From Gemmatimonadota bacterium (GTDB lineage Bacteria > Gemmatimonadota > Gemmatimonadetes > Gemmatimonadales > Gemmatimonadaceae): DNA of 35,433 nt. A program made the position numbers and the translations under genes. Below the pieces are notes generated by a model. The model was given only the letters and a program-made list of their open reading frames with translations. It was not told the origin of the DNA and made no database searches. Shown here one piece after another: positions 18,661 through 27,259 of the stretch. The stretch lies in NCBI GenBank assembly GCA_016874035.1, contig VGVM01000026.1, forward strand, positions 1-35,433. Direction: 5' to 3'. Each line of letters begins with the position of its first letter. Within the stretch, counting starts at the first letter, position 1.

Positions 18661-20861
18661 GTTCGGCTTCCTGTTACCTGGGCGATGATCGTGCGAACGC
18701 GTGCGTCGTCCCGGATCCGGTCGAACACGGAACGTACGGCAAGCATGCCGAGGTTGGCGTCCTTCTGCAAAACCGCGCGGTCGAGTTCTGCGTGCGCCTG
18801 TTGGAGTTCGCCAAGCGCGACGAGTATCTGGGCCATGAGCACTGGCGACACGTAATGGGTGCGCGACCGCTCGCGCAACCAGGCGAGTTGTTCGAGGCTG
18901 CCCTCGCGATCTCCCCGTCCCGCGAGCGCCCAGCCAAACGCGGACACGATTTCGGCGCTGTGCGGGAGCCGCGGCACCATGCGCTCGAGCGTTTCGGTAG
19001 CGTCGACCCAGCGACCCAGCGCGCACAAGGCGAGTCCTGAGAAGAACTCGGTCAGCAGGAAGTCGGGATGTTGTTCGCGCAGCCGCTGGAACTCGACGAT
19101 CGCCTGCTCGTGGTCACCTTCATATGAACGCAGCATGCCGCCGGTCGCCGCGATCACCGGCGACAACGGATCCAGTTCACGGGCGCGGGCGATCTGGGCG
19201 CGCGCCTCCGCGAAGCGCCGCTGCGGCCCGAGCAGGTGAATGGCGTACCACTGATGGGCCGTCGCGTACGCGGACTCGGCGCTGATCGCGGCCCGGTAGT
19301 CGGCTTCGGCGCCTGCGTGATCGTGTGCATACAGCGCGCGCGCGGATCCGCGAGCGGCGAGGGCGCCCGCATGCGTCGGTTCGAGTTGCAGCGCGCGGTC
19401 CGCGGCGGCGATTGCCCGCGGCATGGCCTCTTCGGGTGACACGACGCCGTAGACCGCGAGCGTGACGCAGGTTTCCGCGATCGCCGCGTGGCTGGGCGCA
19501 AAGTTGGGGTCGAGCTCGACTGCCTTCTCGAGGTGTGTCAGTGCCGTCGAGAGCGCCGGCCCCACCCGCATGTTCCAGTGGAATCGCCCCTTCAGGTACT
19601 CCTCGTACGCGGCGATGCTGGTCGGCGATGCCGGCACCGCGCGGACGGTCGCGACGGGCGTCTGTATCGGCGTGAACACCGAATCCTGCAACGTGTGGAC
19701 AATCGCGCCGGCGATCTCATCCTGGACGTCGAAGACATCCGCCATCTGCCGGTCGTAGCGATCAGACCAGACGGAGAACCCGGAGTCCACGTCGGTCAAG
19801 TCGGCCGTGATCCGCAGTCGCGCACCGGCTCGGCGAACGCTGCCGGTCAACAGCGACTTTACACCGAGTGCATTGCCCACCGCCCGCAAGTCGTCGTGCT
19901 TGTTCTTGAAGGAAAACGCGGACGCACGGGCAACGACCCGCAGGTTCGGCAGGCGTCCGAGCTTGTGCATCAACTCCTCGGCGAGGCCGTCGGCCAGGAA
20001 CTCGTCATCCGCCGAGCCACCGGAGTTCGTGAACGGCAGCACCGCGATCGAGCGTCCGCTGGTCACGCTGCGGGCGCGCGACGGCGGCGCCGACGCAGCC
20101 GGGAGCTGCGCCGCGAGCAGCGCGTCGGCAAACTCGGACACCGCGGCGAACCGCTCTTCCGGCGTGCGCGCCAACGCCCTGGTGACGGCCTGGGTCACAT
20201 GCACGGGCGGCGCTGGAACCGCCGTGGAAAACGGGCGCAACGTGCCGCGCGCCTTCTCGGCGAGCAGCTGCAGGGTGTTCGTGCCGTGGAACGGCGGCGT
20301 GCCCTCGACCATCTCGTAGAACACGCAGGCGAGGCTGTAGAGATCGCTCCGGCCATCCACGCTCGCTTCGCCGAATGCCTGCTCGGGGCTCATGTATGCC
20401 GGCGTGCCCAGTCCTGCGCCGTCTTGCGTGAGGCGCTCCGACCCCGGCGCTTCCTTGACCTTCGCGATCCCGAAGTCCGCGACCATCGCGTGATTCCGGT
20501 AGAGGAGGATGTTCTCCGGCTTGATGTCGCGGTGCACGACGCCCATGCTGTGCGCGTAGCTCAGCGCCTCAGCCACCTCGAGCGTGAGGCGGGTCGCGTC
20601 GGTCATGGACAGCCGGCGGTCTCGTTCGAGGCGATGCCGCAGCGACTCGCCGTCCACGAAAGGCATCACGCAGTAGAGTTCGCTGCCGGCCTTGCCCGAG
20701 TCGTAGATCGGCAGGATATGTGGATGCTGGAGCCGCGCCGCCGTGGCGATCTCTCGCGTAAACCGCTCCTCGCCCACCATCTCGCTGAACCCTGAACGCA
20801 GGACCTTGATTGCGACCTGGCGGCTATGCCGGAGATCCTCGGCGACATACACAACGGCCAT
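18657..20861 (-). CDS. Ser/Thr protein kinase with TolB-like and TPR regions
   Basis: From the first canonical start, ATG at 20861, this is a 734-residue protein. Kinase motifs are VAIK (K19), HRDIKPEN (D112, N117), DFG (129-131), GTPAYMSPEQ and DLYSLACVFYEM. After a Pro/Ala-rich linker comes a TolB/FlgO-like domain (SIAVLPFTNSGGSADDEFLADGLAEEL) and then several TPR-like repeats to the end. No membrane helix is seen, so it is probably cytosolic. The glycine-rich loop (GRAGAGG) and the preceding LAARYRIV strand are encoded upstream of the ATG. The frame stays open there for about 45 codons with no ATG, GTG or TTG; the ATC at 20957, with AAGG 5 nt before it, or the CTG at 20906 are the possible starts. 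Coupled downstream to a membrane protein. Confidence 0.88.
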   Translation of the reverse strand: MAVVYVAEDLRHSRQVAIKVLRSGFSEMVGEERFTREIATAARLQHPHILPIYDSGKAGSELYCVMPFVDGESLRHRLERDRRLSMTDATRLTLEVAEALSYAHSMGVVHRDIKPENILLYRNHAMVADFGIAKVKEAPGSERLTQDGAGLGTPAYMSPEQAFGEASVDGRSDLYSLACVFYEMVEGTPPFHGTNTLQLLAEKARGTLRPFSTAVPAPPVHVTQAVTRALARTPEERFAAVSEFADALLAAQLPAASAPPSRARSVTSGRSIAVLPFTNSGGSADDEFLADGLAEELMHKLGRLPNLRVVARASAFSFKNKHDDLRAVGNALGVKSLLTGSVRRAGARLRITADLTDVDSGFSVWSDRYDRQMADVFDVQDEIAGAIVHTLQDSVFTPIQTPVATVRAVPASPTSIAAYEEYLKGRFHWNMRVGPALSTALTHLEKAVELDPNFAPSHAAIAETCVTLAVYGVVSPEEAMPRAIAAADRALQLEPTHAGALAARGSARALYAHDHAGAEADYRAAISAESAYATAHQWYAIHLLGPQRRFAEARAQIARARELDPLSPVIAATGGMLRSYEGDHEQAIVEFQRLREQHPDFLLTEFFSGLALCALGRWVDATETLERMVPRLPHSAEIVSAFGWALAGRGDREGSLEQLAWLRERSRTHYVSPVLMAQILVALGELQQAHAELDRAVLQKDANLGMLAVRSVFDRIRDDARVRTIIAQVTGSRT

Positions 20862-20978
20862 GCCCCCCGCGCCTGCCCGGCCGACAATACGATATCGAGC
20901 CGCCAGCTCAGCGCTGAGGCGGCCGGGATCGTGGCCGGACGAGTCAGTCGTAGTGATGCGAGCCTTGCGAGGAGCGGT

Positions 20979-22142
20979 TCACGAGTGGGCGAAAAGTAGA
21001 GCGCACTCGGCAAGCAGACGCGAGCCAACTGCCAGCGCGCCCTCATCGGGCGCGAACCGTGGCGTGTGGACGTCGGTCACGTCGCCTCCTGGCCCGCGCA
21101 CGCCGATCCGTATGAAGCAGCCGGACATGCGCTCGAGGTAGCAGGCAAAGTCCTCGCCCGCCATGTTCGTCGAGCCAAGCGGAACGACGTTTGGTTCGCC
21201 TACAACCTTCGCCGCGGCCCGCGCGGCAATGGCGGCCGCGTCCGGCGAGTTGACCAGCGGCGGCGTGCCCGGCGTTACGACAATCTCGACGGTGAGCCCA
21301 TGCGCGGCCGCGACACCCTGGGCAACACGCCGGACGCCTTCATGCAACACCGTTCGCGACGCGACTGTCGTCGCGCGAATGGTCCCCAGCAGTTCCGCGA
21401 CCTCGGGAATCACGTTCGGGGCGTTGCCGGCGTGCACGGCGCCAACAGTCACGACGCCCGGCAATCCCGGATCGAGCGATCGCGACACCAAGGTCTGGAG
21501 CGATGAGATCAGCGCCGCCGCGCCCACGATCGGGTCAATCGCACGATGGGGTCGGGCGCCGTGGCCACCGCGACCGGTCAATCGCACCCGGAACGTGTCT
21601 GCCGACGCAGCGAGCGGCCCCGGCTGCGCCACGACCTGGCCGACATCGAAGCGGGGGTCCACGTGCGCGCCGAAGATCATCCGGGCGCCGTCGAGAGCTC
21701 CTGACTCGAGGATCGCCCGCGCGCCCTCGCCAACTTCTTCGGCCGGTTGCAGGACGACCAGCACATCGCCGCCGGCAGGCGTACGCGCCAGGAGGCGCGC
21801 CGCACCGACCGTCCACGCCGCGTGCATATCATGCCCGCAGGCGTGCATCACTCCGTCATTTACCGAGGCGCAGGCGAGCCCGGTCGCTTCCGTGATTGGC
21901 AGCGCGTCAATGTCGCCGCGCAACGCAACACACGGAGCGCCCGGCGTCGTGCCCGGAATCCGGGCGACCAAACCAGTTCGTGCGACGCGCCGGACGTCGC
22001 TCACGCCGCTCTCACGCAGCGCGCGCTCCAGGCGCTCCTGCGTGCGCCCCTCCTGCCAGGACAACTCAGGGTGCTGGTGGAGATCGCGGCGAAGCGCGAC
22101 GAGGAACTCCACATCCGCCGGCGTCAACGCGGCCTTGCTCAC
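20979..22142 (-). CDS. M20D-family amidohydrolase (N-acyl-L-amino-acid hydrolase-like)
   Basis: This 387-residue metal-dependent hydrolase belongs to the hippuricase/IAA-amino-acid hydrolase group. Motifs in order are DLHQHPELSWQE, ALRGDIDALPI, the metal-binding HACGHDMHAA (100-109), LQPAEEVGEGA (catalytic Glu near 135), RLTGRGGHGARPH in the lid domain, and STNMAGEDFACYLE. It would cleave N-acyl (for example N-succinyl) amino acids to the free amino acid. The GTG start overlaps the stop of the MenC-like racemase (GTGA, 22139-22142). The context fits the deacylating last step of a D- to L-amino-acid conversion route; substrate and stereochemistry are inferred. Confidence 0.9.
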   Translation of the reverse strand: MSKAALTPADVEFLVALRRDLHQHPELSWQEGRTQERLERALRESGVSDVRRVARTGLVARIPGTTPGAPCVALRGDIDALPITEATGLACASVNDGVMHACGHDMHAAWTVGAARLLARTPAGGDVLVVLQPAEEVGEGARAILESGALDGARMIFGAHVDPRFDVGQVVAQPGPLAASADTFRVRLTGRGGHGARPHRAIDPIVGAAALISSLQTLVSRSLDPGLPGVVTVGAVHAGNAPNVIPEVAELLGTIRATTVASRTVLHEGVRRVAQGVAAAHGLTVEIVVTPGTPPLVNSPDAAAIAARAAAKVVGEPNVVPLGSTNMAGEDFACYLERMSGCFIRIGVRGPGGDVTDVHTPRFAPDEGALAVGSRLLAECALLFAHS

Positions 22143-23260
22143 GACAACACCTCACGACGCACGGTCAGCGCCTCGATTCGTTCGGCATCCACGTCCACGC
22201 CAATGCCCGGACGATCGACCGGCACCCTCACGAGTCCGCTCTCCATCGTCCATTCGGGACTCACGATATCGCGCGCCCAGTAGCGCGCGCTCGGGCTCAC
22301 GTCGCCGGGAATCGAGAAGTTTGGGAGCGATGCCAGCGCGACGTTGTACGCGCGGCCCACGCCACTCTCGAACATGCCCCCGCACCAGACCGGTATTCCC
22401 GAATCGCGGCAGAAGTCGTGAATGGCGATCGAACTGGTGAATCCGCCCACGCGGCCCGGCTTGATGTTGACGATCCGGCCCGCGCCGAGCGCGACCATGT
22501 CCTGGGCGCGGTCGAGCGACGTGATGGATTCGTCGAGGCAGACGGGCGTGCGGAGGCGCCGCTGAAGCTGTGCGTGCCGCACGAGGTCATCCCACGCGAG
22601 CGGCTGCTCGATCATGATCAGGTCGAGTTCGTCGAAGCCGGCCAGGTGGTCCGCGTCGTCGAGCGTATAGGCGTTGTTCGCGTCGGCCATCAGGTGCGCG
22701 CTTGGGCCGAGGGCGTCGCGAACCGCGCGCACCCACTCAACGTCATGACCCGGCTCGATCTTGATCTTGATCTTGCGGTAACCCTCGGCGTGTGCGGCGC
22801 GGGCCTTCTCGATCAGTCGCTCAGCCGACGCCTGGATGCCCAGCGAGATGCCGACATCAATCGCCTTGCGCGAACCACCGATGAACCGAGACAGTGACTG
22901 TCCGGCAAGCGTCGCGGCGAGACCCCACACCCCCATTTCGACGCCCGCCTTCGCCATGTTGTGGCCGCGGAAATCGCGCTCGAGTTCCTGATGCACGGCG
23001 CCCGGATGGTCGATCGCCTGCCGGATGACTCGAGGCGCCACCCACTGGGTGATCGCCACCCATGCGGTATCAATGGTTTCGGGCGAGTAGTTCGGCGCCT
23101 CGCCGGCCACACATTCGCCCCACACGGACGCGCCCGACGCATCATGCAGCTCGAGCAAGAGGATCCGTCGCTCGCGGATCTCGCCCGAGGAAATCCGGAA
23201 CGGTTCCTTGAGCTCGAGACGAATCTCCCGGAGCGTGATTCGTTCAACCCGAATGGTCAT
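22139..23260 (-). CDS. N-succinylamino-acid racemase / o-succinylbenzoate synthase-like enolase
   Basis: A 373-residue enolase-superfamily enzyme. The catalytic lysine cluster is KIKIKIEPG (K165/K167) with the opposing NIKPGRVGG (K268). The metal ligands are D193 (ADANNAY), E218 (IEQP) and D243 (CLDESI), and WCGGMFESGVGRA follows near residue 292. This is the MenC2/NSAAR branch, whose members racemise N-succinylamino acids and sometimes also make o-succinylbenzoate. No other menaquinone genes are present. The neighbours are a COG3375-like GNAT (ATGA overlap, 23257-23260) and an M20D amidohydrolase (GTGA overlap). That setting favours amino-acid racemisation over menaquinone synthesis, though promiscuity cannot be excluded. 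Confidence 0.9.
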   Translation of the reverse strand: MTIRVERITLREIRLELKEPFRISSGEIRERRILLLELHDASGASVWGECVAGEAPNYSPETIDTAWVAITQWVAPRVIRQAIDHPGAVHQELERDFRGHNMAKAGVEMGVWGLAATLAGQSLSRFIGGSRKAIDVGISLGIQASAERLIEKARAAHAEGYRKIKIKIEPGHDVEWVRAVRDALGPSAHLMADANNAYTLDDADHLAGFDELDLIMIEQPLAWDDLVRHAQLQRRLRTPVCLDESITSLDRAQDMVALGAGRIVNIKPGRVGGFTSSIAIHDFCRDSGIPVWCGGMFESGVGRAYNVALASLPNFSIPGDVSPSARYWARDIVSPEWTMESGLVRVPVDRPGIGVDVDAERIEALTVRREVLS

Positions 23261-24084
23261 GGTCTCGTCATGAGGTAGGTCGCGTCCGAACCGGCGTCGG
23301 CGCCGGGGATGAAGGCGCTCACCCGGTAGCCCGCGCCGAGGTAATGCTGGAACGCGCGGCGCGCCGACAACCGCCAGTGGCGCGCACGCGTGATGTCGCC
23401 CGCGAGCAGCGCGGCGTAGTCATATGGTATTCGCACCGCGACGGCGATTGCCTTGGGAAGCTCGCCGCCGTCGCGCACCGAAAGCGCGGCATCGTCCGGC
23501 GCAGCGGCTACCACCGGTACGTCGCGAAGCAATGCCGCGTCGGCCGGCATCGGCCGCGGCTCCTGTTGCACCGGCCAGAGCGCCACGAACCGGTCCGTCC
23601 CCAACGACCCGTGCACCGGACTGTTCGTGGCCGTGCCGTACATGTCGGCGACGAACTCGTCCACCGTCGCGCCCAGGACGTTCAGGTTGAGGTGCGCATT
23701 GCGCGCAACAAATGGGTCGAAGGTCCAATACATGTGCACGATGCCCAGGGTGCGGCAGCGATCACGCTGGTATCGCTTCATGGCTTCACCGAGCCGGCGT
23801 CCCTGCGCTTCCGGGCGAACCGTGAGAATGTCGGACCAGTGCACACGCAGCCCATCGCGGAGGCCGGTCAATCCGAAGAGGAACCCCACCATTCGGCCAC
23901 TGGGCGCGAACGCACCAGCGGCGACACCCCCGGTCTTTTCCGCGATGAGCAGGATGGCAGCGGGGACCTTCTCGCTGAACCCGGCACCCCACGTTTCCTC
24001 CTGCAGGCGCACGGCCTCAGCGCGCTCCTCGTGGGTTTCGAGGGCGCGGATGACGGTGCCGTCGCTCAAGGTTACGTTCTGCAT
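23257..24084 (-). CDS. GNAT acyltransferase (COG3375-like), probable amino-acid N-acyltransferase
   Basis: This 275-residue protein has a GNAT core in its N-terminal half: VHWSDILTVRPEAQGRRLGEAMKRYQRDRC, with an RxxGxG-like acyl-CoA loop (QGRRLG), then IVHMYWTFDPFVARNAHLNLNVLGATV. This segment and the DMYGTATNSPVHGSLGTDRF stretch are typical of the COG3375 'predicted acetyltransferase' group, which often sits beside MenC-like racemases. In Geobacillus such a protein succinylates D-amino acids. The C-terminal ~90 residues are a less conserved alpha/beta extension. It is the first gene of the operon and its ATG is 59 bp from the divergent amidohydrolase start. Donor and acceptor are inferred from context. 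Confidence 0.85.
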   Translation of the reverse strand: MQNVTLSDGTVIRALETHEERAEAVRLQEETWGAGFSEKVPAAILLIAEKTGGVAAGAFAPSGRMVGFLFGLTGLRDGLRVHWSDILTVRPEAQGRRLGEAMKRYQRDRCRTLGIVHMYWTFDPFVARNAHLNLNVLGATVDEFVADMYGTATNSPVHGSLGTDRFVALWPVQQEPRPMPADAALLRDVPVVAAAPDDAALSVRDGGELPKAIAVAVRIPYDYAALLAGDITRARHWRLSARRAFQHYLGAGYRVSAFIPGADAGSDATYLMTRP

Positions 24085-24143: not shown

Positions 24144-25967
24144 ATGATGCGTACGCTGTTCATGCAATTGGCGATCGGGGTCGTCGTGGTCGGCTGCCAG
24201 AGTACCGGCGGAACCGCGGTGCCAGCGCCTGCCCCCGCGCCGGAAAGGGCGGCGCGGCCCGTGGCTGCCGCGCCCGCCGCGCCCGCCGCGCGCGCAGCGA
24301 ATCCAGCGATGCGTGGCGAGTCCACCCCCGACGGCGGCCCCTTCGACGTCGTGATCACCAACGGGCGGATCGTGGATGGCACCGGCGGTGCCTGGTACTG
24401 GGGCGACCTGGCGATGCGCGGCGACCGGATCGTCCGGATCGCGCGCCGCGGGGCACTCGCGCGGTCCACGGCGACGCGTCGCATCGATGCCCAAGGCCAG
24501 ATCATCGCCCCGGGCTTCATTGATATCCAGTCGCACTCGACTGCGAACTACATGAGTGGTGACGGGCGCGCCCTGAGCATGACGGTGCAGGGCGTGACCA
24601 CGTCCATCATGGGCGAGGGTTCCACGCCGGCGCCCGTCAGCCAGGCGCAGGTGAACGCCGCCGCGACGCCGGAAGCGCGTGCCCAGCTCACGAGATTCTC
24701 CGGGCCGTTGGCGTTCGGGAACTGGATGGACTACCTGATGGAACGCGGCGTGACGCAGAACGTCGGGTCGTTCGTCGGTGCGGGGTCAATCCGTGTGTAT
24801 GGCAAGGGTCTCGCGATGGGCGAGGCCAGCGGCGCCGACCTCGACTCCATGCGCACCGCGATGCGTCATGCGATGGAGCAGGGGGCGTTCGGCCTCGCGA
24901 GCGCGCTGATCTACCCGCCGAACACCTACGCGACACAGCGCGAGCTGACCGAAGTCGCGAAGGCCATGGCGCCCTACGGCGGCATCTATATCACGCACAT
25001 GCGCTCCGAGGCCGACCAGTTCCTCGAGGCGATGGACGAGGCGATCGCCATCGGACGCGATGCGGGCGTGCCGGTCGAGATCTATCACCTCAAAGCATCC
25101 GGGCCGCGCAACTGGCCGAAGATGCCGCTCGCGATCGCGAAGATTGACTCCGCGCGCGCCGCCGGGCTCGACGTGCAGGCGAACATGTACCTCTACATCG
25201 CCGGCGGGAACAGCTTCACGGCCTGCATCAACCCGAAGTTCGCCGAAGGCGGGAAGCTGCTCGAGAACCTGAGGAATCCCGCCCTCCGGCCACAAGTGAA
25301 GCGCGACCTGCTCGATGAAGACGCCGGATACGAGAACCTCTGCCTGATTGCCGGGCCGAACAACGTGATGGTCACCGGGTTCCGGAAGCCCGAGTATCGG
25401 CAATACGAGGGCAAGCGACTTGATGAAATCTCGCGCGCACTCGGCAAGGACTGGGCCGACGCGCTGATTGACCTCAACATCGAGGAGAACGGCCAGCTCG
25501 GCGAGATCCTCTTCCTGATGAGCGAGGACAACGTCAAGCTCCAGCTCAAGCAGCCGTGGATCAAGTTCGGCACCGACGCCGGCGGCATGGACCCCGCGAA
25601 TGCCCGCGGCATGACACATCCTCGCGCGTATGGCAACTTCCCGCGCCTGCTCGGCAAGTATGTGCGCGAGGAACAGGTGCTCACGCTGGAAGATGCCGTG
25701 CGAAAGGCGTCATCGGCCGTTGCGACGCGACTCGGGATCCACGATCGCGGCGTGCTGAAGGAAGGCTTGAAGGCCGACGTGATCGTGTTTGACGAGAAGA
25801 CGATCAAGGACCTGGCGACCTTTGAGGACCCGCACCGGCTCTCGGTCGGCGTGAAGCATGTGTTCGTGAACGGTGTCGCCGTGCTGAGCGAAGGCGCACA
25901 TACCGGCGCCAAGCCGGGACAGGTCGTGCGCGGCCCGGGGTGGTCAGGAGCACGAATCCAGCCGTGA
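24144..25967 (+). CDS. Lipoprotein amidohydrolase, N-acyl-D-amino-acid deacylase family
   Basis: This 607-residue protein begins with a lipoprotein signal (MRTLFMQLAIGVVVVGC, C18) and an Ala/Pro-rich linker to about residue 60. The amidohydrolase domain starts FDVVITNGRIVDGTGG. Metal-site elements are APGFIDIQSHST (H131), GIYITHMRSEAD, VEIYHLKASG and FGTDAGG near the end; GVLKEGLKADVIVFD closes the composite beta-sandwich. Characterised D-aminoacylases have H-x-H at the first site, whereas here the first His is Gln (Q129). This looks like a subfamily feature, and the true substrate may differ. A strong AGGGGGA precedes the ATG. The location would be periplasmic or on the outer membrane. The gene diverges from the racemase operon and its stop overlaps the PAP2 gene. 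Confidence 0.85.
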   Translation: MMRTLFMQLAIGVVVVGCQSTGGTAVPAPAPAPERAARPVAAAPAAPAARAANPAMRGESTPDGGPFDVVITNGRIVDGTGGAWYWGDLAMRGDRIVRIARRGALARSTATRRIDAQGQIIAPGFIDIQSHSTANYMSGDGRALSMTVQGVTTSIMGEGSTPAPVSQAQVNAAATPEARAQLTRFSGPLAFGNWMDYLMERGVTQNVGSFVGAGSIRVYGKGLAMGEASGADLDSMRTAMRHAMEQGAFGLASALIYPPNTYATQRELTEVAKAMAPYGGIYITHMRSEADQFLEAMDEAIAIGRDAGVPVEIYHLKASGPRNWPKMPLAIAKIDSARAAGLDVQANMYLYIAGGNSFTACINPKFAEGGKLLENLRNPALRPQVKRDLLDEDAGYENLCLIAGPNNVMVTGFRKPEYRQYEGKRLDEISRALGKDWADALIDLNIEENGQLGEILFLMSEDNVKLQLKQPWIKFGTDAGGMDPANARGMTHPRAYGNFPRLLGKYVREEQVLTLEDAVRKASSAVATRLGIHDRGVLKEGLKADVIVFDEKTIKDLATFEDPHRLSVGVKHVFVNGVAVLSEGAHTGAKPGQVVRGPGWSGARIQP

Positions 25968-27259
25968 TCGGCGTAAGCGTTCCGGGCGCGCCGGGCATGC
26001 AGTGGACGGTGGACATCGCCGTGCAGCGTGCGGCGCGCGACTCCTCGCTCCAAGCGGTGCCCGCCCTCCAGGGCACGATGCGCGCGGCGAACTGGTGGGG
26101 CGGCGATGGCGTCGTGTGGTTTGCCGCGCTGCTTTGGTTGGGCGCGCGGTTTGCGGGCCGGAGCGTGCTGGCGAGAATCGGCCTTCGCGGGGCCGAAGCC
26201 CTCGCGGTTGGGAGCGCGATCAGCGGAATCCTGAAGGGCTTCGCGGGGCGCGCGCGTCCGTTCGTCACGCCGGGCGAACCCTGGCACTGGGAGTTCGCCC
26301 GCGGGTGGACCGAAGCCCAGTTCTTCTCGATGCCATCCGGGCACACGACGGCGACAACCGCGTTTGCGGTCGGCGCCGGGATGGCGGCCTGGAGACACGG
26401 AGTGGCCGGCCGCGTCTTCGCGACGATCCTCGTGCTCAGTGCCGTTGCGGTCGCCGCCGGCCGCGTCTTCGCCAACCAGCATTGGCTGAGCGATGTGATC
26501 GTCGGGATGTTGCTGGGCAGCGCCACTGCGGCGCTGCTCGCCCGTCTGCATGCGCGCGGTGAGTTCCCGAAATACACGCGAGCGATGCTCGGCGGCGCCG
26601 CAGCCGTGCTGCTATTGGCCACGCCGGCGCGGGCCGGGGCGCAGTGGTCAGTGACACGCGTGGATCTCACGGTGCTGTCGGCGGGTGCAGGTGCGAGCGC
26701 GATCGCGATGGTCTTCGACGAATCGATCACGCGCGAAGCGCGCGCATCCCTTACGAACGGTGGCTTTCGCCGTTCCGCGCTCGACCTCGGCCGGCAGTTC
26801 GGCAGCCCGGGTGCGTTGGCCGCGGGCGCGGCGATGTACGGTGTCGGCAAGCTGGCGGACCGCCCGGTCCTTGCGTCGAGCGGTCGCCGCGCGCTCGAGG
26901 CGATCGCGTTGTCCGGCGTGGTCACAGGCGGCATAAAGGCGGTGGCCGGCCGCGCGCGGCCGTCGGCATCGCCTGACCGGCCACATAGCTACTCGTTCAT
27001 GCGCGGGCTTCGCGATGGCAGCGAGTATCAATCCTTTCCGTCGGGGCACGCGACGTCGGCGTTCGCCTTTGCGTCCGCCGTGAGCGGCGCGTGGACGCGC
27101 CACGGCAAGCGCCCTCGCTGGGTAGCGCCGACACTATATGGATTGGCGGCGCTCACGGCGGCTTCCCGGGTGTACGATCACCGGCACTGGGCGAGCGACG
27201 TGATCCTGGGCGGCGCGATCGGGATCGCATCCGGCCGCATCGTGCAGCGCGGCCGCTGA
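25964..27259 (+). CDS. Protein with two tandem PAP2 phosphatase domains
   Basis: This 431-residue protein carries two complete PAP2 signatures. The first is KGFAGRARP, MPSGHTTAT and AGRVFANQHWLSD. The second is KAVAGRARP, FPSGHATSAF and ASRVYDHRHWASD. Both keep the Lys/Arg, Ser-His and Arg/His residues used for lipid-phosphate hydrolysis. Between the domains lies AMLGGAAAVLLLATPARAGAQ, which looks like an N-terminal signal peptide and begins at an in-frame ATG (26585), so two genes may have fused or a second protein may start there. Likely roles are undecaprenyl or phosphatidate phosphate hydrolysis at the periplasmic face. The GTG at 25964 was chosen for its 4-bp overlap with the upstream stop; the GTG at 25940 is also possible. 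Confidence 0.85.
   Translation: MIGVSVPGAPGMQWTVDIAVQRAARDSSLQAVPALQGTMRAANWWGGDGVVWFAALLWLGARFAGRSVLARIGLRGAEALAVGSAISGILKGFAGRARPFVTPGEPWHWEFARGWTEAQFFSMPSGHTTATTAFAVGAGMAAWRHGVAGRVFATILVLSAVAVAAGRVFANQHWLSDVIVGMLLGSATAALLARLHARGEFPKYTRAMLGGAAAVLLLATPARAGAQWSVTRVDLTVLSAGAGASAIAMVFDESITREARASLTNGGFRRSALDLGRQFGSPGALAAGAAMYGVGKLADRPVLASSGRRALEAIALSGVVTGGIKAVAGRARPSASPDRPHSYSFMRGLRDGSEYQSFPSGHATSAFAFASAVSGAWTRHGKRPRWVAPTLYGLAALTAASRVYDHRHWASDVILGGAIGIASGRIVQRGR

Follow-up and report, generated by a model that had tools for sequence, protein, structure and literature searches.

As judged from sequence comparison, three minus-strand genes of a Gemmatimonadota genome probably form an operon for turning D- into L-amino acids, with an acylation step, racemisation of the N-acyl intermediate and an L-selective deacylation. 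The genes encode a GNAT-superfamily N-acyltransferase, a MenC-type enzyme of the enolase superfamily and an M20D metallo-amidohydrolase. Translationally coupled in a single operon, they would invert the stereochemistry of amino acids by way of N-acyl derivatives, in three steps: (i) the GNAT would move an acyl group, most likely succinyl and possibly acetyl, from acyl-CoA onto a D-amino acid, (ii) the MenC-type enzyme would racemise the N-acyl-amino acid through a Lys/Lys 1,1-proton transfer and a metal-bound enolate, (iii) the M20D enzyme would hydrolyse the N-acyl-L form, drawing the mixture irreversibly to the free L-amino acid. We infer the acyl donor, the D-amino-acid substrate, the direction and the L-specificity of the M20 enzyme; the sequence alone fixes neither the direction (D to L or L to D) nor the acyl group, for which succinyl is favoured over acetyl.

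This kind of pathway is known. A succinyltransferase (GNAT), an N-succinylamino-acid racemase and an L-desuccinylase reportedly make up such a route in Geobacillus kaustophilus, in work attributed to Sakai et al. in 2006. In PMC8762209 the GNAT-related enzyme of Sakai et al. 2006 is described as acylating D-Phe, D-Tyr and D-Trp, with either acetyl- or succinyl-CoA as donor. What is new is the set of lineages for which no description was found; the open-licence literature yielded none of the trio route in Gemmatimonadota.

Layout of the locus

The window (the whole stretch of DNA analysed, 35,433 nucleotides) comes from a member of the family Gemmatimonadaceae, and an earlier sequence-only reading had correctly placed it in the phylum Gemmatimonadota. 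The trio and the gene divergent from it are as follows.

23257 to 24084, minus strand: GNAT-superfamily N-acyltransferase with a C-terminal extension, 275 aa, ATG start; proposed D-amino-acid N-acyl(succinyl)transferase, step 1
22139 to 23260, minus strand: MenC-type enolase-superfamily enzyme of the NSAR/OSBS kind, 373 aa, ATG start; proposed N-acylamino-acid racemase, step 2
20979 to 22142, minus strand: M20D metallo-amidohydrolase, 387 aa, GTG start; proposed N-acyl-L-amino-acid deacylase, step 3
24144 to 25967, plus strand: D-aminoacylase (Amidohydro_3) family lipoprotein, 607 aa, divergent from the trio; canonical metal ligands replaced

The gene order on the minus strand is GNAT, MenC-type, M20D. 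The GNAT stop and the MenC-type start share an ATGA overlap, and the MenC-type stop and the M20 start share a GTGA overlap; all three reading frames are intact, which bears out the three coupled genes of the sequence-only reading. That reading had set the left end of the region at 20861, which is 118 bases past the M20 stop; the trio ends at 20979. Position 20861 belongs to the start codon of the following gene on the same strand (20861-18657), a Ser/Thr protein kinase fused to TPR repeats that lies directly downstream of the trio, 117 bases off. A resembling kinase is found near the trio in a few relatives.

The D-aminoacylase-like lipoprotein is kept beside the trio in many, not all, relatives. 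In place of the HxH metal motif it has QSH (most genus mates have QAQ), and it lacks the ligand Cys but keeps the later His/Asp ligands. The protein is possibly a re-tooled or mononuclear amidohydrolase. Because the HxH motif is altered and the Cys absent, it is not counted as a working D-aminoacylase; a role as a fourth member releasing D-amino acids outside the cytoplasm was rejected on the same residues and is kept as a lead only. Its gene is overlapped by 28 bases by that of a plus-strand protein with two PAP2 (phosphatase) stretches (25940-27259).

The acyltransferase

The GNAT protein on its own matched no Pfam or NCBIfam model in the profile search. Acetyltransf_1 is matched by 13 of the 18 members of its homologue alignment, the family profile recovers solved GNAT structures, and an AlphaFold2 model (pLDDT 92.5) gives Foldseek matches to GNATs with a probability of 1.00. 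On the strength of homologues, profile and model the GNAT label is right, as the sequence-only reading had it, and the first protein of the trio is, by alignment and predicted fold, a GNAT with a C-terminal extension (∼100 residues). The CoA-loop (acyl-CoA binding) segment is PEAQGRRLGEAMK, and the alignment gives W32, S84, K103, Q106, W120, P124, D164 and R165 as family invariants. In comparisons with Bacillota, the Lysinibacillus and Priestia plasmid copies stand in for the Geobacillus proteins: a tblastn search with the GNAT finds both the Lysinibacillus GNAT (E 6e-15) and the Priestia GNAT (E 5e-30), with the invariants shared, at an identity to Bacillota GNATs of only 24-28%.

The putative racemase

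The second protein, of a type usually annotated menC, scores 330.6 bits against the o-succinylbenzoate synthase (OSBS) model TIGR01928, above the cut-off of 200.65. Its closest solved relatives are N-acyl/N-succinylamino-acid racemases (PDB 1r0m, 1sja and 2zc8), which we take to be the enzymes of Deinococcus, Amycolatopsis and Thermus. In an alignment with the Deinococcus racemase (DrNSAR) the catalytic residues K165-x-K167 and K267 are present and the metal ligands D193, E218 and D243 are kept, as is the CGGMxESGxGRA motif. R270 is the Arg of the K-x-x-R motif, which is said to favour NSAR activity and presumably corresponds to R266 in Amycolatopsis; it does not discriminate here, because a second, GNAT-less clade of MenC-like enzymes also carries the Arg.

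In the tree, the trio racemase clusters with GNAT-linked copies from Gemmatimonadota, Acidobacteriota and Bacteroidota, and the second Gemmatimonadota clade falls apart from them. The members of this second clade (L041-L055, from Gemmatimonadota families f2 and f3 and some from f1) are ∼38% identical to the trio racemase and have AGTMPETG in place of CGGMxESG; several of their loci lie near a dihydrodipicolinate-synthase-like reading frame, identified by eye only. The clade was considered as the same system and set aside, because no GNAT lies within ∼2.5 kb (shorter on some contigs) and the CGGM/GRA motif is missing.

The M20D amidohydrolase

The third protein scores 330.7 bits against the amidohydrolase model TIGR01891 (cut-off 153.75). 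All five metal ligands are present (C102, H104, E136, H160 and H359), and the lid domain has H194 and R197 in the motif HGARPH. The alignments of racemase and M20 residues thus confirm the intact catalytic motifs noted earlier for these two enzymes. Among solved structures the closest is YxeP (1ysj), at 44% aligned identity; identity to the M20s of the Bacillota trios is 27-31%, and the Streptomyces M20 belongs to another subfamily. By sequence, the trio M20 is of the same superfamily as the Bacillota enzyme, on a different M20D branch, and is not its orthologue. It follows that N-succinyl-L specificity is the weakest step of the proposal, and that the third function may differ between phyla.

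Of 49 aligned M20 segments associated with trios, 48 carry Arg197, as do all three Bacillota trio M20s. The position is Ile in YxeP, and Phe and Val in the two in-genome M20D paralogues, a small non-trio sample; the Arg separates the trio copies from these paralogues and suggests a specialisation of the trio enzyme. We hypothesise that it contacts the succinyl carboxylate.

Conservation of the gene set

Among 149 related genomes, 75 have racemase orthologues (57-79% identity), and the GNAT occurs in 73 of these 75 and in one genome that lacks the racemase. Of the 80 racemase copies, 74 have the GNAT immediately before them on the same strand, and M20 is the third gene in all of the best 30 loci, with some loci cut by contig ends. 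The conservation that the sequence-only reading proposed to look for in relatives is therefore found, for the GNAT-racemase pair in 73/75 genomes and for M20 in those best 30 loci. Since the gene order is kept in dozens of genomes, the arrangement is not due to chance.

A set of 80 named GTDB loci covers Gemmatimonadota, Acidobacteriota (including Holophagales and Thermoanaerobaculia), KSB1, one Bacteroidota-labelled MAG and others; here the GNAT is directly upstream of the racemase in 76 (counted by eye), and one exceptional locus keeps GNAT and M20 together downstream. An M20 neighbour is found mainly in Gemmatimonadota; most Acidobacteriota loci have none inside the fetched flanks. At one Thermoanaerobaculia MAG locus (L154, 2594-3865) an IS110-type-transposase-like reading frame apparently splits GNAT and racemase.

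Further afield, Lysinibacillus and Streptomyces plasmids have the order M20-GNAT-menC, and a Priestia plasmid has GNAT-menC with an M20 near, upstream. GNAT and menC adjoin ABC-transporter genes on a Deinococcus plasmid and an amino-acid ABC transporter on a Sulfitobacter plasmid, and homologous GNAT and menC genes are also present in Arthrobacter. The GNAT-NSAR pairing is kept across at least three phyla, and the arrangement matches that in Bacillota.

Menaquinone context

The host, with a 3.08 Mb genome of 99.5% completeness, uses the futalosine route to menaquinone. MqnC of this route is found at 448.1 bits (cut-off 428.1), whereas MenD (best 42.2 bits, cut-off 244.2) and MenB (best 109.4 bits, cut-off 342.7) are represented in the genome by sub-threshold relatives only. 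With MenD and MenB below cut-off and MqnC present, the OSBS label is left without a substrate in this host. Of the 149 related genomes, 124 have MqnC and 3 have MenD above cut-off, and none has both. The 75 racemase-bearing genomes divide into 60 with MqnC, 2 with MenD and 13 with neither above cut-off. The two with MenD (G047 and G103) are without MqnC and so represent a switch to the classical menaquinone route. An independent survey likewise finds that Gemmatimonadales favour the futalosine route (PMC9426454).

Alternative readings

A genuine menaquinone OSBS, with GNAT and M20 as unrelated passengers, is a scarcely credible account of the locus. The enzyme does score above the cut-off of the NCBIfam equivalog model of o-succinylbenzoate synthase, and bifunctionality is frequent among NSAR/OSBS enzymes, as far as the table entries of one source go (PMC8142540). 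Against this stand the genome content (MqnC but neither MenD nor MenB above cut-off, at 99.5% completeness), the like pattern over the 149 relatives, and the tight coupling of the racemase to the GNAT. Genome content thus rules out the classical menC role for this host, unless the missing 0.5% holds both MenD and MenB. The possibility raised by the sequence-only reading, that the racemase acts only as an OSBS, falls away because the genome has MqnC but neither MenD nor MenB above cut-off.

A closer competitor, although an unlikely one, keeps the same three-step logic but uses acetyl-CoA and a narrow set of amino acids, as in the DgcN/DgcA route for D-Glu. In that route DgcA, the partner of DgcN, is another enzyme of the enolase superfamily, an N-acetyl-D-Glu racemase (PMC12363236, PMC10845958). 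Acetyl-CoA is a common acyl donor of GNATs, and, according to PMC8142540, characterised NSAR relatives accept N-acetyl substrates as well. A DgcA-type racemase was nevertheless rejected: the trio enzyme scores 106.8 bits with the DgcA model NF042940, where the cut-off is 400, compared with 330.6 for the OSBS/NSAR-type model. The Arg in the M20 lid motif, too, would more easily be read as binding a carboxylated (succinyl) acyl group. It is very improbable that the operon makes or salvages some other N-acyl compound (an acyl-protected peptide, a cell-wall dipeptide epimer or an S-succinocysteine-type adduct) rather than acting on free D-amino acids. YxeP, the closest solved structure to the M20, belongs to the Bacillus subtilis yxe operon, which we take to handle S-succinocysteine-type adducts, and dipeptide epimerases also belong to the enolase superfamily. 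However, the racemase is far from the dipeptide-epimerase models (67 against 343 bits for NF011708) and carries the CGGM/ESG motif of OSBS/NSAR enzymes, and no yxe-type monooxygenase was seen among the neighbours scanned.

Significance

Catalytic promiscuity has a textbook example in the NSAR/OSBS enzymes, whose biological reaction is often unclear since the men pathway is present. With the men pathway missing and the partner GNAT conserved, the trio offers a clean natural case of an NSAR/OSBS enzyme outside an OSBS context, so that its biological role becomes cleanly testable. The ‘menC / o-succinylbenzoate synthase’ annotations in Gemmatimonadota are probably wrong, and those at the related Acidobacteriota and KSB1 loci are possibly wrong too. 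If true, the D- to L-conversion reading would give phyla that are common in soil and lakes an additional means of salvaging D-amino acids.

A broader proposal is possible, although we lean somewhat against it as a whole. It holds that the GNAT-racemase pair in Gemmatimonadota, Acidobacteriota and KSB1 would be a system dedicated to N-succinylamino-acid racemisation, and nearly all Gemmatimonadales hosts would lack a men pathway, so that ‘menC’ would be a pure NSAR in vivo. The Gemmatimonadota would have recruited their own M20D desuccinylase, convergent with the Bacillota one, with R197 reading the succinyl carboxylate.

Comparison with known systems

The irreversible conversion of D-Glu to L-Glu by DgcN-DgcA shares with the trio an N-acylation followed by racemisation by an enzyme of the enolase superfamily, although the racemase family differs; to our knowledge, no dedicated M20 deacylase is part of the DgcN-DgcA pair. 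B. subtilis YxeP has the M20D fold and the metal ligands in common with the trio M20, but it has the lid motif HASIPN where the trio enzyme has HGARPH, and it belongs to another operon. The Deinococcus, Amycolatopsis and Thermus N-acylamino-acid racemases have all catalytic residues in common with the trio racemase; they were studied as single enzymes, whereas the trio racemase is fixed in an operon with an acyltransferase and a deacylase.

The nearest precedent is the Geobacillus pathway, which has the same three enzyme classes, a racemase of the same subfamily and a GNAT of a homologous family, judged via the Lysinibacillus and Priestia copies and not the Geobacillus proteins. The trio differs in its order (GNAT-racemase-M20), in the M20D branch of its deacylase and in a host usually without the men pathway. 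The sequence-only reading held that the same route operates here: for steps 1 and 2 this has good support as a family match, and for step 3, with a non-orthologous M20, it would be an inferred function. Given an M20 at 27-31% identity to those of the Bacillota trios and 44% to YxeP, the trio is best described as a set that would work like the Geobacillus one, not as its orthologue.
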